Assembly (NCBI GenBank): GCA_944323155.1
Contig: CALURL010000007.1
Coordinates: 1-64,000, forward strand
Source: Candidatus Gastranaerophilales bacterium
GTDB lineage: Bacteria > Cyanobacteriota > Vampirovibrionia > Gastranaerophilales > Gastranaerophilaceae
Length of the DNA stretch: 64,000 nt
Reading direction: 5' to 3'
Each line of letters begins with the position of its first letter. Position 1 is the stretch's first letter. The position numbers were made by a program, and so were the translations under genes. Shown in pieces: positions 52,834-60,504 of this stretch. Below the pieces are notes generated by a model. The model saw only the letters and a list, made by a program, of their open reading frames with translations. It searched no databases and was not told the origin of the DNA.

Positions 52834-53293
52834 AAAAGTTTGTAAAACTCTTGATGATACAAAAGAATTGGCGCAAAATTTTGCAAAACTGATTAAAGAC
52901 GGCTGTTTTATTAATCTTTATGGCGAAATAGGAGCGGGAAAAACTGCATTTGTAAAACTTGTTGCCAATGCACTTGATGTAAAAGAAAAGGTTACAAGCC
53001 CAAGTTTTGTAATACTTAATGAATATCACACCGGCTCAATTCCGATTTACCATTTCGATTTATACAGACTTGAAAATGAGGGAGTTAGAACAATTGTTGA
53101 CGAACTTCGTGAATACTCAGAAGGTAAACAGGTTACATTTGTTGAGTGGGCTGAATTCTCGCAGGATGAAGTTCCGTTTAATCACCTGCAAATTAATGTA
53201 ACATATTCTGATGACGATTCCAGAATTTACACTTTCTCATTTATTGGAGAAGACAAAAACAACATAATAGAGGAGTTGAAAAAGTGTTATTAA
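52820..53293 (+). CDS. tsaE: tRNA threonylcarbamoyladenosine ATPase TsaE
   Basis: TsaE is the ATPase that resets the TsaB-TsaD complex during synthesis of the universal t6A37 tRNA modification. The 157-residue protein has Walker A GEIGAGKT (35-42), the SPSFVILNEYH switch and the YHFDLYRLE and FVEWAE blocks of the family. I set the start at 52820 (MKKFEKVCKT), within the end of the GGDEF gene; the longer frame from 52763 lies inside that gene. The GTG start of tsaB overlaps its end by 10 bases. Confidence 0.95.
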   Translation: MKKFEKVCKTLDDTKELAQNFAKLIKDGCFINLYGEIGAGKTAFVKLVANALDVKEKVTSPSFVILNEYHTGSIPIYHFDLYRLENEGVRTIVDELREYSEGKQVTFVEWAEFSQDEVPFNHLQINVTYSDDDSRIYTFSFIGEDKNNIIEELKKCY

Positions 53294-53901
53294 TAGCTTT
53301 TGACACCTGTTTAGACAAAATGTATGTAACTTTAAAAAAAGATGAAAAAATTCTTTCTTCAAAAGTTGTAGAAAATTCCGATACAAAATACCATTCAGCA
53401 TTTTTGATTTCGACATTACAAAGAGTGATGAACGAAAACAATGTTAAGCCTGAAAATCTTGATCTTATTGCAGTAAACATCGGCCCCGGAAGTTTTACAG
53501 GAATACGAGCCTGTACAACAGTTGCAAGAGTAATGGCACAGCAGTTAAACATTAAAGCAATAGGAATTTCATCTCTTGAAATCCTTTCACAGATTAATAA
53601 TACTGATAAAAAAACTCTTGTTGCACTTGATGCAAGAAAAAATTCAGCATACCTGTTTGTTGATGGAGAAATTAAAGGCGCAATCCAGCTTGAAGAAGTC
53701 AAAGAACTTATTAAAAACGGAGATTATTTTGTTATAACAGATGACAAATTAAAACCAATTTTAGGCGGAATTTCTTATCAGGAAAAGGCTTATCCACTCG
53801 GAGAAATTCTTGCAGATCTAGCAGAACAAAAATCACAAAATGATGAATGCAACTGGAGGAAGTTAAAACCTCTATATATCCAGCCGCCGCCAATGGGATA
53901 A
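53284..53901 (+). CDS. tsaB: tRNA threonylcarbamoyladenosine protein TsaB
   Basis: TsaB is the inactive partner that activates TsaD for t6A synthesis. The 205-residue protein starts with LLIAFDTCLDKMYV and has the family's GPGSFTGIRACTTVARVMA (about 62-80) and VALDARKNSAYL blocks. The start is GTG at 53284, preceded by GGAG and overlapping tsaE by 10 bases, which indicates translational coupling. tsaD is not in the window. The three split-HNH genes follow after about 60 bases. Confidence 0.94.
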   Translation: MLLIAFDTCLDKMYVTLKKDEKILSSKVVENSDTKYHSAFLISTLQRVMNENNVKPENLDLIAVNIGPGSFTGIRACTTVARVMAQQLNIKAIGISSLEILSQINNTDKKTLVALDARKNSAYLFVDGEIKGAIQLEEVKELIKNGDYFVITDDKLKPILGGISYQEKAYPLGEILADLAEQKSQNDECNWRKLKPLYIQPPPMG

Positions 53902-53939: not shown

Positions 53940-53966
53940 ATAAGCGGGTGAGAATTTACCGCTTAT
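53940..53966 (+). promoter_or_regulatory. Hairpin enclosing the start codon of the first split-HNH gene
   Basis: Perfect 8-bp arms ATAAGCGG (53940-53947) and CCGCTTAT (53959-53966) enclose an 11-base loop. The right arm contains the A and T of the ATG at 53965, and no ribosome binding site is visible outside the hairpin. Confidence 0.55.
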
Positions 53967-54924
53967 GGAGAAAAGAATACTCAAAACAGAAAATATTAAT
54001 TTTAAATGCAAGGCTGAGGATATTCCACTAACCAGACGGGAGCTGAAAAATTTATTTAATTACCGTATTCCATGCTTGTGCTGCGGAAGAGAAATGCTTC
54101 ATCCTGATGAATATATGAAACTTTTAAATATTAAAGAACTATCAGGAAACGCAGAGCTTGTTATACAAATTTTATCTCCGTATGAAAAAATAATGTATCC
54201 TGTGGAAAGACAAGTTTTCAATATGCTTAAAAATCTTGCAGTAAAGTATCCTGATAAAAACTTTCAGGAACTTTTGCTTATTAAAAAGGATTCCCATGAA
54301 CTTGCACTTGTCAGAATTCAGAGCATAATATTTAACAAAATAAGTTTTTACAGAAGAATATTACCTGAAAAAGAGGCAAAACAGCTGCGAAATCTCATGA
54401 TAAAAACAAATGATATAATCTTTGATCCCCAGCCTAAAAAACCATTTAGCAGACGCATATTTATCACAAAGATTAAGCATATTGTAAGGAATTTAAACAA
54501 CAAGCGTATTAAACATGAAATAATAGAAATTTCTCGCAGACTACCGCGTTCTAGCGATGAAGTCTGTGCATTTGTGGTAAAAAACGCAAGAAAACGGCCG
54601 GAAATTATTGCATTAAACTTAATACACCCTGCAGTCGGGACATTTGAACACTTGCAGCCCAAAAGCCAAAAAGGCATGAATAATTCGCTTAACTTTGCAC
54701 TAGAATGTTCATACTGCAACAATTCCCGCCACCATTATCCAATACCTGTTCAGATTGAAGAAAATCCTTATATGCCGCAAAATGCGCAAATTCAAGCTGA
54801 TAAACTAATTTCTTTATACAAAAAAAATATCGGAAGCAAAGAATATATAAAAAATCTCAAAAAAGTTTTGTACAATCTATCCTACGAACAGATAGAGCTT
54901 GATATTTCTAAACTTGACGATTAA
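53965..54924 (+). CDS. Split-HNH protein 1: CxxC knuckle and distant HNH core
   Basis: This 319-residue protein has a PCLCCG knuckle (C37, C40) near the N-terminus and an HNH-nuclease core near the C-terminus: FEHLQP (E228, H229), N240/N243, ECSYCNNSR (C248, C251, N252, R255). In ordinary HNH enzymes the first CxxC lies some 20 residues before the [D/E]H; here about 190 residues of helical sequence separate them. The two CxxC pairs can still be one zinc site. It is the first of three tandem paralogues and the shortest. The spacer shares blocks with the other two (PYEKIMYPVE, PDKNFQELL). Endonuclease activity is a family-based inference. Confidence 0.72.
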   Translation: MEKRILKTENINFKCKAEDIPLTRRELKNLFNYRIPCLCCGREMLHPDEYMKLLNIKELSGNAELVIQILSPYEKIMYPVERQVFNMLKNLAVKYPDKNFQELLLIKKDSHELALVRIQSIIFNKISFYRRILPEKEAKQLRNLMIKTNDIIFDPQPKKPFSRRIFITKIKHIVRNLNNKRIKHEIIEISRRLPRSSDEVCAFVVKNARKRPEIIALNLIHPAVGTFEHLQPKSQKGMNNSLNFALECSYCNNSRHHYPIPVQIEENPYMPQNAQIQADKLISLYKKNIGSKEYIKNLKKVLYNLSYEQIELDISKLDD

Positions 54925-54980
54925 CGTAACATTTTATTACAAAACTGGCAAAATAAAAAAATTACGTGTATTACTAAAGT

Positions 54981-56537
54981 GTGAAAGTAATATTGTCGAC
55001 AAATAAATTTACAACAAATCTGAGAGGAGATTATAAGAATAATCAGTATGATTATTCTTCTTACAGGGCACCTGTAAGAAATTTTTTGCCGCAAAATGAT
55101 ACTTTTGTAAAAAACAATCGTCCATCATTTAATGGTTTTATTCATACCCAATCTGAATTCAGAGGAATAATACGAAATCACCCTGTACATTGTATTTATT
55201 GTAAAAAGCCAATGATAAATGTTGATATTCTTAAAAATTTTCAACACGAAGGTGTCTTTAATGGTCCTGTAATTAGATTTCTCCAAAAAATGACTCCATA
55301 CAAAAATATTCTTAAACCCGCCTTACTGGAGGCATTTAATGATATAGAACGTATAGCGCTTCAAGCACCGCAAACCCACCTTTCAAGAATAATAAAAATT
55401 CTCCATAACGAATCTCTTATAGAATTAAGAAGTATCCAAAGACCTATATTCAATGAAATAGACAAATACGTAAAACAGCTTCCTGAACCATATAATGAAA
55501 AAGCAATGGAAGTTTTACTTCGCCACAGAAACAGAATGGAAGGTATAGCTCAACAGGAAGAATTTAACCCGAAAGATTTTACATATAAGATAAGAAATGC
55601 CGCCAAAACAATATTACTTTCAAATGAACAAAAAAGCCGTATAATTCAACTCTGTGATTTGCTAAATGATAAACAACTAAAAGGCAGCAAAACTGATGCA
55701 ATTTCTAATGCAATATTTAATTCTATATTTCCGAAAAAGAACAAATTTGATTATTCACTGCCATGTTCCATAAAAAGTATACAACTTTATATTGTCGAAC
55801 GAATAAAACAAATCTCCAGCAGACAAGGCTACAACGATATAACAAATTTTTGCAGAACTGCAGAAAAGACGCTTTTAGATAAGCCCGTAATTGTTCCATT
55901 TAGAAACAAAGCCTTTATCTATGACTTAAAACAGGTTCTTAATGATTGTACTAATAAACATATTAAGCACAAAATTTTTGAAACAGCCCAAAAACTTCCG
56001 ACATCAGCAACCAACCTTAATTCATTCATCACCAAACATCAGTGTTCAGATTCAAATACAATAGGCTACAATCTTTTTAAGCCATCAATTGTAACAATAG
56101 AACACATTACCCCAACCGCAAAAGGCGGAAGAAATCAAATGGGCAACTGGGCACTTGCCTGTGCATTTGACAACAATTCACGCCAGGATAATGCAATGAA
56201 TAAAATATTAAACAAATATGATAAAAATAATACAAGATACTACTTCAACGAAATAATAGACCTTACTAATCAAAGTCTTATATCCTTTGAAGATATGCTT
56301 CAACAAAGTGAATCAATTTACCATGAAAGCGGACGGAGATTAAGTCTCAAAAAGTTGTCACGACATATTCTGGAACAAAACTTTAGAAACAATTCTCAGC
56401 AAAATTTCGATAAATTAGTGGAACTTTCAAACAAACAATTAATTTCGGGCTATGATATATACGAACTTCAAAAATTATTACAAAAAAAATGCGGAATATA
56501 CGTAGAAGTAAAGAATTTATCATATCATTTTTATTAA
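54981..56537 (+). CDS. Split-HNH protein 2, second core cysteine replaced
   Basis: This 518-residue paralogue starts at GTG (54981). Its N-terminus carries YKNNQYDYSSYRAPV and, later, SFNGF, before the knuckle HCIYC (C71, C74). About 300 residues follow, mostly helical, with TNKHIKHKIFETAQKLPTSA matching its neighbours. The HNH core reads IEHITPTAKGG (E374, H375), N389, C394 and DNNSR. The last zinc cysteine is Asp (CAFD instead of CxxC), so its zinc site may be weak or the copy degenerate. The 5' coding region contains two perfect inverted repeats. Gene 3 follows after 50 bases. Confidence 0.72.
   Translation: MKVILSTNKFTTNLRGDYKNNQYDYSSYRAPVRNFLPQNDTFVKNNRPSFNGFIHTQSEFRGIIRNHPVHCIYCKKPMINVDILKNFQHEGVFNGPVIRFLQKMTPYKNILKPALLEAFNDIERIALQAPQTHLSRIIKILHNESLIELRSIQRPIFNEIDKYVKQLPEPYNEKAMEVLLRHRNRMEGIAQQEEFNPKDFTYKIRNAAKTILLSNEQKSRIIQLCDLLNDKQLKGSKTDAISNAIFNSIFPKKNKFDYSLPCSIKSIQLYIVERIKQISSRQGYNDITNFCRTAEKTLLDKPVIVPFRNKAFIYDLKQVLNDCTNKHIKHKIFETAQKLPTSATNLNSFITKHQCSDSNTIGYNLFKPSIVTIEHITPTAKGGRNQMGNWALACAFDNNSRQDNAMNKILNKYDKNNTRYYFNEIIDLTNQSLISFEDMLQQSESIYHESGRRLSLKKLSRHILEQNFRNNSQQNFDKLVELSNKQLISGYDIYELQKLLQKKCGIYVEVKNLSYHFY
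55035..55059 (+). repeat. In-gene inverted repeat, HNH gene 2, first hairpin
   Basis: AAGAATAATC (55035-55044), a 5-base loop and GATTATTCTT (55050-55059) form a perfect 10-bp stem within codons for YKNNQYDYSS. The same hairpin, with a 9-bp stem and a different loop, occurs at the same place in HNH gene 3. Confidence 0.85.
55058..55080 (+). repeat. In-gene inverted repeat, HNH gene 2, second hairpin
   Basis: TTCTTACAGG (55058-55067), GCA, and CCTGTAAGAA (55071-55080) form a perfect 10-bp stem directly after the first hairpin, sharing two bases with it. Three of its base pairs are replaced by other complementary pairs in HNH gene 3. Confidence 0.87.
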
Positions 56538-56587
56538 AAAATTAATACAAAATGACAAATTTTAAAATTCAGGTTAATTAATATAAT

Positions 56588-57751
56588 ATGAAAATACTTG
56601 CGGTAACAAATAATATAATAAAGCTAAGAGAAGTTTATAAGAATAATCTATATGATTATTCTCAATACAGGGTACCTGTATTGAGCCGCGACACATTTAC
56701 TTTTTCAGGTAAAATTTCTAAAAAAGATAATAATGATAACGATTTGGAAGTTGCCAGATTTTATTACAAGCCACCAGAAAATGAGCCAATTTCTAATAAA
56801 GCAGAAGAAGAACTTATTAAGGATACAGTAAACAATTATGCCAATTACATTCTCCCCTGCCCTTGCTGCGGAGACATAATGATTCCTCCAAATATATACT
56901 ACAAACTACAAAGAGAAATAACACGAAATCCAAGAACAACAATATTACTACTAAATAAAATGGAAAAATATATGCATCCTGTTGAAAAAAATATATTTTC
57001 AATGATAAAAAAAGAGCATAAAAAACATCCTGACAGAAATTTTCACGAAATCTTGATATCAAAACGTCCGCAGGCAGAAAAAGAATTGATAAGAGAACAA
57101 ACTGAAATTCTAAACAGTATCTTGCTGCTAAGCCGAAATATTCCTAAAAAATATCAGCAGGAAATAAATAATTTAATAAAAAATACATACAGTCAAATCT
57201 TTAATCAAGAACCGCAAGCTACTTTTAGAAGGAAAAAATTCATAGAAAAACTTGAAAATTGTATTGAAAATATTGAAAATCAGGAAATGGAAGAGCATAC
57301 AAATTATTTGAGTCCTAGCGAAAAAAGAACTTATTATAGAATCATAAAAAAAGCATACAAAATGCCAACCTCCTATAATTCGGTACCTGCATTTATAGTT
57401 AAATACTCAAAACAAGAATACTCTCATAAAAATATTGCTACCAGGTTGATAAGCGGATCGGTTGCAACATTAGAACACGCATTACCATCAGTTCTTGGAG
57501 GGGAAACTTCATACAATAATCTTATTAATGAATGCGCAAAATGCAACAGCACAAGAAGAGAAGATGATGTTATGACACAACTTAAAGAACATCCTAATAT
57601 GCCGCAAAATATGCAAAGACATTTTAATAGACTAATAGAACTTTCAAAACAAAATAAAGTTGATAAAAGCTATATCTGTGAAATTGCCGCAACATACTAT
57701 CAATTATCAAATGGTAAAATTGATATTGATTTAAGCGAGCTGTGGGAATAA
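56588..57751 (+). CDS. Split-HNH protein 3
   Basis: This 387-residue paralogue has an N-terminal YKNNLYDYSQYRVPV motif and DTFTFSGK (about 35-42), the PCPCCG knuckle (C91, C94), a helical spacer of about 200 residues (with EKYMHPVEKNIFSMI and HPDRNFHEIL like gene 1) and a complete HNH core: LEHALPSVLGG (E296, H297), N311, ECAKCNSTR (C316, C319, N320, R323). It is the cleanest candidate nuclease of the three. No signal peptide or membrane helix is seen. Its 5' coding region contains the same pair of hairpins as gene 2. An unknown 98-residue gene follows 105 bases later. Confidence 0.75.
   Translation: MKILAVTNNIIKLREVYKNNLYDYSQYRVPVLSRDTFTFSGKISKKDNNDNDLEVARFYYKPPENEPISNKAEEELIKDTVNNYANYILPCPCCGDIMIPPNIYYKLQREITRNPRTTILLLNKMEKYMHPVEKNIFSMIKKEHKKHPDRNFHEILISKRPQAEKELIREQTEILNSILLLSRNIPKKYQQEINNLIKNTYSQIFNQEPQATFRRKKFIEKLENCIENIENQEMEEHTNYLSPSEKRTYYRIIKKAYKMPTSYNSVPAFIVKYSKQEYSHKNIATRLISGSVATLEHALPSVLGGETSYNNLINECAKCNSTRREDDVMTQLKEHPNMPQNMQRHFNRLIELSKQNKVDKSYICEIAATYYQLSNGKIDIDLSELWE
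56640..56662 (+). repeat. In-gene inverted repeat, HNH gene 3, first hairpin
   Basis: AGAATAATC (56640-56648), TATAT, and GATTATTCT (56654-56662) form a perfect 9-bp stem in codons for KNNLYDYS. The arms match the gene 2 hairpin. Confidence 0.85.
56661..56685 (+). repeat. In-gene inverted repeat, HNH gene 3, second hairpin
   Basis: CTCAATACAGG (56661-56671), GTA, and CCTGTATTGAG (56675-56685) form a perfect 11-bp stem. Against the gene 2 hairpin the arms differ at three pairs, each compensated on the other side. Confidence 0.87.
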
Positions 57752-57856: not shown

Positions 57857-58153
57857 ATGGCAGATACAGGTGCTTCATTTAACAGACCATATAAGCCTTT
57901 CGGGATGAACGTAAAAGTTCCTGAAATAGGCGAACATACAATGAAACTTGCGGGTAATACCTTAGAAAACATTATAAAAAGCCCGGCAGAACCATTATTT
58001 GAATTTTTGGAAGAAAACGAAAACGTGTTTAATGGAGATATAAATTACCAAATAAACAAATTATTTGCAGAAAGCTTTACAATAGGCTCTGCAATGCGTA
58101 TGGAAGACGAAAAAATGAACGGAATGCCGCCGTCTTTTGATATGCACTTCTAA
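57857..58153 (+). CDS. Small acidic protein of unknown function
   Basis: This 98-residue soluble protein has no family I recognise. The sequence reads FNRPYKPFGMNVKVPEIGEH, then a helical TMKLAGNTLENIIKSPAEPL and FEFLEENENVF, and ends in a Met-rich tail (AMRMEDEKMNGMPPSFDMHF). It is acidic overall and lacks a signal peptide. It follows the three split-HNH genes in the same direction, separated by 105 bases, and is closed by a terminator. A partner or inhibitor role for the HNH proteins is only a positional idea. Confidence 0.66.
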   Translation: MADTGASFNRPYKPFGMNVKVPEIGEHTMKLAGNTLENIIKSPAEPLFEFLEENENVFNGDINYQINKLFAESFTIGSAMRMEDEKMNGMPPSFDMHF

Positions 58154-58362: not shown

Positions 58363-60504
58363 ATGGTACCGGAAACAAAAAAAACACAGATTGAAATCGG
58401 CGGAAAAACCGTTACAATTGAAACCGGCAAGTACGCTCAATCTACAAACGGTTCTGTTACAGTTAGATGCGGTGATACAATGCTATTCGTTCACTGCGTT
58501 GTTTCAAAAGAACCAAGAGTCGGGATAGATTTCTTCCCGCTATTAATTGATTATGAAGAAAGAATGTCTTCAATTGGCCGTATCCCTGGCGGTTACAACC
58601 GTTCAGAAGGGAAAGCAAGCGATAAAGCAATATTAGTTTCAAGACTTATCGATAGACCAATCAGACCTCTTTTCCCAAAAGGATATAGAAATGATATTCA
58701 AATTGTAGCACAATTATTCAGCTACGATCAGCAAAATCAACCGGACACACTTGCAATGTTAGGCGCATCATTTGCATTAATGCTTTCTGGCGCTCCATTT
58801 GAAGGCCCTATAGGCGCAGTAAGAGTTTCACGCGACGAAAATGGCAATATGATTGCAAACCCAACACACCAGCAAGCTAATAAATCTGACCTTGATATAG
58901 TTGTTGCAGGTACACACGACAGCGTAATTATGGTTGAGGCCGGATGTAAATTCGTTACAGAAGACGATATTATGAATGCAGTTGAATTCGCCCAAGTCGA
59001 AATCAGAAAACAATGCGAAGCTCAAGAAGCATTTATAAAAGAATGCGGAGTTGAAAAAGAAGTATTCGTAAATCCTTATGATACATCAGAAATCAAAAAA
59101 ATTATTGATGAAACAGCTCACGATATGATTTTTGATGCTTACCACAACTTTGATAGAACTTACAGACAAGAAAAACTTGAAGAAGCTAAAAAACTTGTTA
59201 AAGAAAAAATTGATGCGCTTCCGGAAGATGATTACAGCAAAAAAATCATGGAAGAAACAGGCATTGACTTTGTTGCAGAAGAATTTAAAAATGCAGAAAA
59301 GAAAATTATGCGTACAATGATTCTCGATGAAGGCGTAAGAGCTGATGGAAGAAAGCCGCATGATGTACGTCCTATCTGGTGTGAAGTTGGAGTAATTCCA
59401 CGTGCCCACGGGTCTGCAGTATTCACAAGAGGCCAAACTCAAGTTTTATCGGTTGCAACATTAGCAGGACCAGGAATGAAACAGGAACTCGACGGAGTTG
59501 ATCCGGAAACTGAAAAAACTTATATGCACAAATACATCTTCCCTGGATTTTCTGTTGGTGAAGTAAAACCATTAAGAGGACCTGGCAGACGTGAAGTTGG
59601 ACACGGAAATCTTGCAGAAAGAGCTAATGTTCCAGCACTTCCTTCACAAGAAGAATTTGGCTACACAATCCGCGTAACTTCTGACGTATTAGAATCCAAC
59701 GGGTCAACATCAATGGCATCAACCTGCGGTTCATCAATGGCATTAATGAATGCCGGTGTTCCCGTAAAATGTATGATCGGCGGTGTTGCAATGGGTATGA
59801 TTACAGAAGAAGGCAAAGAACCTGTTGTATTAACTGATATTCAAGGTATTGAAGACTTTTTAGGCGATATGGACTTTAAAGTTACAGGTAATGACACAGG
59901 TATTACAGCTCTTCAAATGGATATGAAAGCCAAAGGAATTGCAAATGACACATTAAGACGTGCATTACAACAGGCAAAAGAAGGCAGATTACATATCCTT
60001 GGAGAAATGAGAAAAGTCATTACAGCTCCAGCAGATCATCTTTCACCTTATGCACCAAGCATTACAACAATGACAATTCCTGTAGAAGACATCGGAACAG
60101 TAATTGGACCTGGCGGAAAACAAATCAGAGCAATTATTGACGCTTCAGGTGCTGAAATTGATATTCAAGACAACGGTGTTGTAACAATTACTTCTAACGA
60201 CCAGGAAGGCGCAGCTATTGCAAAAAGAATGATTGAGGAATTAACTTTCAAACCAGAACCTGGAATGGTTGTAAAAGGTAAAGTTGTAAGAATTATTCCA
60301 ATAGGTGCTTTTGTCGAACTTGCACCGGGCAAAGATGGAATGGTACACATTTCACAAGTATGCAATGAAAGAATAGATACAATAGAACCACACTTGCATA
60401 TTGGTGACGAAGTAATCGTTAAAGTTATCAAAATCGACGACAAAGGAAGAGTAAACCTTACAATCAAAGGTGTTACAGAAGAAGACAAGGCTAAGTTAAA
60501 TTAG
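58363..60504 (+). CDS. pnp: Polyribonucleotide nucleotidyltransferase (PNPase)
   Basis: PNPase degrades RNA from the 3' end with phosphate and can add tails. The 713-residue protein has two RNase PH-like domains (about 1-225 and 315-545, with MSSIGRIPGGYNRSEGKASD in the first and FPGFSVGEVKPLRGPGRRE and STCGSSMALMNAGVPV in the second), the alpha-helical linker, a KH domain (VIGPGGKQIRAIID, near 580) and a C-terminal S1 domain (GMVVKGKVVRIIPIGAFVEL). All elements are complete. It is a single gene with a hairpin leader and its own terminator. RNase PH is also encoded (27924-28625). Confidence 0.98.
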   Translation: MVPETKKTQIEIGGKTVTIETGKYAQSTNGSVTVRCGDTMLFVHCVVSKEPRVGIDFFPLLIDYEERMSSIGRIPGGYNRSEGKASDKAILVSRLIDRPIRPLFPKGYRNDIQIVAQLFSYDQQNQPDTLAMLGASFALMLSGAPFEGPIGAVRVSRDENGNMIANPTHQQANKSDLDIVVAGTHDSVIMVEAGCKFVTEDDIMNAVEFAQVEIRKQCEAQEAFIKECGVEKEVFVNPYDTSEIKKIIDETAHDMIFDAYHNFDRTYRQEKLEEAKKLVKEKIDALPEDDYSKKIMEETGIDFVAEEFKNAEKKIMRTMILDEGVRADGRKPHDVRPIWCEVGVIPRAHGSAVFTRGQTQVLSVATLAGPGMKQELDGVDPETEKTYMHKYIFPGFSVGEVKPLRGPGRREVGHGNLAERANVPALPSQEEFGYTIRVTSDVLESNGSTSMASTCGSSMALMNAGVPVKCMIGGVAMGMITEEGKEPVVLTDIQGIEDFLGDMDFKVTGNDTGITALQMDMKAKGIANDTLRRALQQAKEGRLHILGEMRKVITAPADHLSPYAPSITTMTIPVEDIGTVIGPGGKQIRAIIDASGAEIDIQDNGVVTITSNDQEGAAIAKRMIEELTFKPEPGMVVKGKVVRIIPIGAFVELAPGKDGMVHISQVCNERIDTIEPHLHIGDEVIVKVIKIDDKGRVNLTIKGVTEEDKAKLN

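Follow-up and report, generated by a model that had tools for sequence, protein, structure and literature searches.

A putative split-zinc HNH nuclease family of Gastranaerophilales, found as a tandem trio between tsaB and pnp

Background

Few cutting modules in biology are reused as often as the HNH nucleases, whose chemistry and zinc ribbon are both already known. To our knowledge, no zinc-bearing HNH protein with a large domain between the two halves of its zinc site has been described. The window analyzed here, a stretch of 64,000 nucleotides from a Candidatus Gastranaerophilales bacterium (contig CALURL010000007.1), contains three tandem genes in which an N-terminal CxxC is followed, at a great distance, by an HNH core. 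The question raised by this locus is whether the two parts form a single zinc site, interrupted by an insert, or belong to unrelated domains, and what role such proteins may play.

Results

Organization of the locus

The three genes had been described in an earlier note as a trio with a divided HNH signature, located downstream of tsaB and followed by a gene for a 98-residue protein. Open reading frames, motifs and flanking genes were all found as described, and are reported in Table 1. The genes are arranged head to tail, separated by 56 and 50 bases; tsaE and tsaB lie upstream, the 98-residue gene and then pnp downstream.

Table 1. Features of the tsaB-pnp locus; positions refer to the window, residues to the individual proteins.
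Feature	Position	Strand	Description	Basis
tsaB	53284..53901	+	upstream slot boundary	TIGR03725, 118 bits against a cut-off of 69
Gene 1 (HNH1)	53965..54924	+	319 aa, zinc-type split HNH, CC/CC, conserved member of the tsaB-pnp locus	ORF, motif columns, tsaB-like pace
Gene 1 N-terminal CxxC	54073..54084	+	C37, C40	motif columns
Gene 1 insert	54085..54645	+	residues 41-227, predicted helical	AlphaFold2, pLDDT 85, pTM 0.80
Gene 1 HNH core	54640..54729	+	TFEH...N...CSYCN..R	Pfam match and spacing
Gene 2 (HNH2)	54981..56537	+	518 aa, longer insert, CAFD (Asp for last zinc Cys), variable slot gene	ORF, motif columns, slot comparison
Gene 2 N-terminal CxxC	55191..55202	+	C71, C74	motif columns
Gene 2 insert	55203..56099	+	residues 75-373	spacing
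Gene 2 HNH core	56094..56183	+	TIEH...N...CAFDN..R	Pfam match and spacing
Gene 3 (HNH3)	56588..57751	+	387 aa, CC/CC, variable slot gene	ORF, motif columns, slot comparison
Gene 3 leader motif	56690..56713	+	DTFTFSGK, within predicted-disordered leader (residues 1-73)	pattern search, AlphaFold2
Gene 3 N-terminal CxxC	56858..56869	+	C91, C94	motif columns
Gene 3 insert	56870..57472	+	residues 95-295, predicted helical	AlphaFold2, pLDDT 74, pTM 0.68
Gene 3 HNH core	57467..57556	+	TLEH...N...CAKCN..R	Pfam match and spacing
98-aa protein	57857..58153	+	function not assigned, conserved neighbour independent of HNH genes	occurs also without adjoining HNH gene
pnp	58363..60504	+	downstream boundary	TIGR03591

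All three proteins carry the [D/E]H general base and, at fixed spacing, the two downstream Asn by which the HNH superfamily is recognized. The catalytic His (H229, H375 and H297 in genes 1, 2 and 3) is separated from the second N-terminal Cys by 189, 301 and 203 residues, respectively. Relative to this His, genes 1 and 3 feature Asn at +14, Cys at +19 and +22, and Asn at +23; gene 2 follows the same pattern, except for an Asp at +22.

A terminator-like element, composed of a 10-pair hairpin and a run of T, falls within the beginning of gene 2 (window 55058-55080) and may be due to chance: the number of terminator-like sites in the region is close to that expected from shuffled sequences.

Membership and spread of the family

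The arrangement had been thought to match no named family, and library searches agree. The Pfam families HNH or HNH_5 match all three proteins weakly and over the core only (E from 2e-5 to 1e-3), and weak core matches are all that is found in NCBIfam, PADLOC and PHROGs, where no named family covers the split arrangement. An identification with a defence system listed in PADLOC was accordingly discarded.

Within the order, relatives are abundant. A fourth copy is present elsewhere in the same genome (G000:C9), and the gene 3 protein, used as a query, finds members in 46 of 59 relatives, with up to 10 matches per genome. The recurrence of the pattern goes well beyond chance: with the trio and three orthologues as the basis of a profile, 101 members were collected in a first group of loci, and a second set added a further 93; by a profile of 20 members, the family is present in 182 of the 192 sampled Gastranaerophilales genomes, often in multiple copies. 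The N-terminal CxxC column is aligned in all 94 full-length members of the first set but one, truncated at a contig edge. The distance between the N-terminal Cys pair and the catalytic His has a median of 190 residues in members with both pairs intact, and ranges from 128 to 376 over all members. The nearest named relative is a syntenic trio in another Candidatus Gastranaerophilales genome assembled from a metagenome (L005).

Beyond the order, only HNH cores are matched, in open frames of varied length, including many frames of about 430 residues, IscB-like in appearance. The weak matches to the N-terminal part seen in the sister order proved to be MutL proteins fused to HNH, and were not retained as members. 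No phage relative was found in 50,697 phage records, nor in two scans of viral contigs.

The earlier note had also proposed that a single family had been duplicated locally. The family is indeed one: in a tree, the three genes belong to one supported clade. They are spread, however, over three separate old subclades of it, so that the trio does not derive from a recent local duplication. As a source of the longer insert of gene 2, internal duplication was considered and found unsupported in gene 2 itself, and borderline in two relatives.

Joint loss of the two cysteine pairs

If the distant cysteine pairs hold the same zinc, they may be expected to vary together. Of the 94 full-length members of the first set, 53 have both pairs intact (CC/CC), 19 are altered in the C-terminal pair only, and 22 lack an intact N-terminal pair. 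The 19 altered C-terminal pairs read CxxD in ten cases, HxxC in eight and SxxW in one. Not one of the 22, one of which is merely truncated at a contig edge, retains a C-terminal CxxC. The second set, gathered later, behaves in the same way: its 93 members are divided into 55, 17 (13 CxxD, 4 HxxC) and 21, and none is discordant. When the two sets are pooled, and CxxC, CxxD and HxxC are all taken as zinc-capable, a zinc-capable C-terminal pair is present in 143 of the 144 scorable members with an N-terminal pair and in 0 of the 41 without it; these 185 members are related by descent, and the Fisher value is not to be read as the probability of the hypothesis.

The association is specific. Only two of 58 conserved columns strongly track the loss of the N-terminal pair, and these are the two C-terminal Cys (phi 0.75 and 0.64); the next ranked columns, one of which is the Thr preceding EH, score 0.47 and 0.46, respectively. 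On a quick tree, built without the Cys columns under test, the N-terminal pair changes about six times, and a likelihood test of correlated evolution favours the dependent model (LR 42, p 1.7e-8; with a strict coding, LR 23, p 1e-4). A test on independent pairs found only two to four of them, too few for significance. Substitutions are also paired: Arg at the position of C40 (gene 1 numbering) is found together with Gly at that of C251 in 13 of 13 members, and Asp at C37 is accompanied by Ser at C248 in 5 of 5. The six Arg-bearing members placed on the tree form a single clade, so these paired replacements are not independent events.

The members of that clade (L060, L065, L068, L070, L076 and L077), in which the second N-terminal Cys is replaced by Arg and the last C-terminal one by Gly, are natural zinc-less versions retaining the EH...N...N set.

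Since the two pairs are lost together, the halves appear still to meet in the fold: the pattern indicates that they come together in the folded protein as one putative zinc site, spanning the long insert. This split-site architecture is held with high confidence. The contrary explanation would assign the N-terminal CxxC to a separate domain, as a zinc knuckle or redox motif in its own right, unrelated to the HNH core. It could appeal to the 128-376 residues lying between the pairs, and to the zinc-less HNH cores of the family, which imply that a core can do without the N-terminal pair. It would leave unexplained a joint loss with a single discordant protein among 185, and the outcome of the correlated-evolution test. 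No other conserved column tracks the loss to the same degree; moreover, the core has the spacing of a known zinc HNH protein, but lacks a first CxxC at the customary position. The explanation by separate domains is judged highly improbable.

Gene 2 had been described as having lost its last zinc Cys. The sequence does read CAFD, but the same Asp recurs in 23 of the 185 members, and gene 2 is better seen as probably a recurrent variant in which one ligand is replaced by another, rather than as an isolated loss.

No member of the first set (94 of 94 conserved), zinc-less ones included, has lost the catalytic His or the final Asn, and both residues are nearly complete in the second set; the middle Asn is absent beside a short deletion, or replaced by Asp, in a few members. 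Given the constancy of His and last Asn, the loss of the zinc pairs does not reflect general decay. The same residues bear on the possibility that the fold is degenerate and only binds, with a structural or regulatory function and no nuclease activity. Zinc ligands are lost in 41 of 185 members, and many members have drifted, as this explanation would have it; binding-only descendants, however, would be expected to lose their catalytic residues, and these are retained. A purely binding role is regarded as very unlikely, and a metal-dependent nuclease activity, judged from the conserved residues, as likely.

Predicted structure

AlphaFold2 models were built for genes 1 and 3 from alignments of six sequences, with a mean pLDDT of 85 and a pTM of 0.80 for the former, 74 and 0.68 for the latter. 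In both models the CxxC sits on a short hairpin; helices follow in succession, and the HNH core then comprises two strands and a helix. In gene 1 the core is modelled as strands 224-229 and 244-248, followed by a helix at 249-255; in gene 3 the strands occupy residues 292-297 and 312-316. The predicted helical nature of the insert, along with the joint loss of the Cys pairs, bears out the suggestion that this is one family, with a helical domain placed between the zinc halves. Model confidence is very low in the leaders preceding the CxxC (residues 1-21 in gene 1 and 1-73 in gene 3), as would be the case for disordered segments.

Fold searches returned nothing at E <0.001, either for the models of genes 1 and 3 against solved structures, or for that of gene 1 against viral models. 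As modelled, the helical insert is therefore without a recognized relative among solved structures.

Genomic localization and slot turnover

Clustering of the neighbours in the first group of loci reveals two fixed places for the family. One has the order tsaB, one to three HNH genes, the 98-residue gene and pnp; in the other, a subfamily of 660-686 aa proteins occupies a conserved place of its own, beside aquaporin-like and YfiH-like genes (named by eye). The remaining copies, single or paired, have varied neighbours. No constant partner gene, recurrent ATPase gene, defence island or immunity candidate was found among the neighbours of the members. In three divergent loci (L042, L071, L082) a SKI2-like DEAD/DSHCT helicase directly adjoins a member; in two of them the HNH protein is long (731-743 aa).

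At the tsaB-pnp locus, which is fixed among relatives, gene 1 and the genes downstream of it behave differently. Gene 1 orthologues keep pace with tsaB, the respective identities being 72 and 67, 75 and 75, 81 and 83, 90 and 93%, while the other slot genes average 33-49%. In the L039/L040 pair, tsaB is 97% identical, HNH1 94% and the slot gene 39%; in the L005/L169 pair, the values are 97, 93 and 30%. Slot genes may also be nearly unchanged (99 and 97% identity in L170/L173), and the overall picture is bimodal: judged from these identities, it looks like cassette replacement rather than steady fast evolution. For gene 1, dN/dS is about 0.04 (0.035/0.81, L039/L040), denoting purifying selection, and its conservation suggests that gene 1 has its own core function.

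Conservation of the 98-residue protein in the close set is 67-94%, irrespective of what the slot contains. A family gene is found upstream of it in most close orthologues; a few orthologues have neither tsaB nor a family gene within 1500 bases, and in one genome the slot is empty, with tsaB directly adjoining the 98-residue gene and no HNH gene between (L246, G072).

Presence and absence at a single site, as in this last genome, is what selfish, homing-type endonucleases would generate by spreading through cuts at cognate sites, and HNH chemistry and the many dispersed copies (up to 10 matches in one genome) would fit as well. Yet the genes are free-standing between host genes, rather than housed in introns or inteins; gene 1 stays in place at the pace of tsaB, under the constraint reported above; the subfamily of 660-686 aa occupies a separate, conserved place; and phage and viral collections hold no relative. 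A homing origin is considered quite unlikely.

The leader motif

The leader of gene 3, predicted to be disordered, contains an instance of a motif, DT[V/F][S/T]F[S/T/K]G, which is located at about residue 30-50 and is common to many unrelated proteins of these genomes (L036, L068, L087, L116, L262-L284; window 56690-56713). Carriers include, besides the HNH family, RelA/SpoT-domain proteins, phosphoglucomutase, HAD phosphatase, a phosphofructokinase (related form) and proteins without assigned function; SKI2-like helicases have a looser SFxG form. In the loci examined, 21 of 31 matches fall within the first 90 residues of an ORF. At the DNA level, the pattern gives about 76 matches in 59 genomes, against about 21 in a reversed control; the strict form DT[VF]SF.G has only two matches in the source genome, for which reason the main argument does not draw on the leader. 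One locus (L068:7227-11299) contains a tandem array of five paralogues, each about 250-270 aa long and each with a leader of the DTV[S/T/N]FxG type; one of the five was searched against Pfam, without a match.

The motif may be a lineage-specific sorting signal, as its position and its recurrence in unrelated proteins would allow. Were its [V/I][S/T]FxG element a trafficking signal in the HNH proteins too, these could be exported toxins or effectors, killing competitors or acting outside the cell. The DT[V/F]SFxG form near the N-terminus of so many proteins, its excess over the control and the turnover of slot genes are in favour of this possibility. On the other hand, no adjoining immunity gene is seen, the 98-residue neighbour being kept irrespective of the slot; gene 1 has hardly any leader; and the carriers include ordinary-looking enzymes, so that the motif need not mean export. 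An exported toxin is, on balance, unlikely.

Discussion

The reading preferred here, to which a probability of about two in three is assigned, is that the trio represents a lineage-specific family of split-zinc HNH nucleases, bearing an insert, probably acting on DNA and possibly engaged in conflict. In an HNH nuclease of the beta-beta-alpha-metal type, the zinc ribbon bracing the core would be interrupted between the first CxxC and the first core strand; the inserted helical domain would separate the zinc halves, and both pairs would converge to hold one structural zinc. Binding of zinc by the Cys pairs is thus a prediction from motif and covariation. Some members would replace one ligand by Asp or His, and several lineages would dispense with zinc wholly, retaining the catalytic [E/D]H-N-N set. 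The chemistry would be a metal-dependent nicking or cleavage, with DNA the probable substrate, and the insert may serve as a domain for recognition of substrate or partner.

The biological role is stated more tentatively. Swapping of slot genes and variation in copy number speak for a conflict-type role, such as defence against invading DNA; no immunity gene, phage relative or defence neighbour was found that would strengthen it, and it is given somewhat less than even odds. Zinc may also staple the helical insert to the active site; a doubtful extension is that it couples the two, so that binding of a ligand, DNA or a partner could switch the nuclease, the downstream copies serving as arms-race cassettes.

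What is new is the presence of a large domain inside the putative zinc site, the joint loss of its halves and the order-wide spread, none of which was found in the libraries and literature searched. The family is multi-copy, and few of the sampled genomes lack it, in an order of gut bacteria that is still poorly understood. It offers natural versions, zinc-bearing, ligand-swapped and zinc-free as judged from their residues, and a conserved gene beside a swapped slot: what zinc does in HNH enzymes, and what the family itself does, can hence be tested directly.

Comparison with known systems

Several known systems share the core. The nuclease subunit PtuB of Septu (PADLOC PDLC00315) has an HNH core, but scores 13.7 bits at best, over the core only, and no recurrent PtuA-type ATPase lies beside the members. 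IscB (NCBIfam NF040563) gives a weak core match (E 1e-4, about 21 bits), far under its cut-off of 175 bits; in IscB and Cas9, unlike the trio, the HNH is part of a larger RNA-guided nuclease. A Cas9 HNH domain (GeoCas9 HNH, 8f43) appears in the fold search at low significance. Polymorphic toxins include nucleases of the HNH/EndoVII fold, with fast cassette turnover (PMC3482391); here, in contrast, no delivery domain or immunity gene was found, and a lineage-specific insert lies inside the putative zinc site.

In the sister order, three loci (L228, L229, L230) encode MutL with a C-terminal HNH of the form CVYC...DHYLP...CxxCN. These fusions, too, have a CxxC on either side of a DH core, the interval being moderately enlarged, to about 45 residues; they differ in being joined to MutL, match the profile only weakly and are not members of the family.

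The best sequence match among solved structures is Gmet_0936 (PDB 4h9d; E 2.6e-5, core only). Its zinc is held by Cys38, Cys41, Cys73 and Cys76, and its active site includes D53, H54, N68 and N77 (PMC3765158); the coupling of Cys76 and Asn77 is pointed out by its authors (PMC3765158). It shares with the trio the [D/E]H-N-CxxCN core, the spacings from His through N, C and C to N being identical to those of genes 1 and 3. The difference resides in the first CxxC: in Gmet_0936, a chain of 112 aa with no inserted domain, it directly precedes the DH strand and is 13 residues away from the His (C41-H54), whereas in the trio it is moved away from that strand, to a distance of 189-301 residues.
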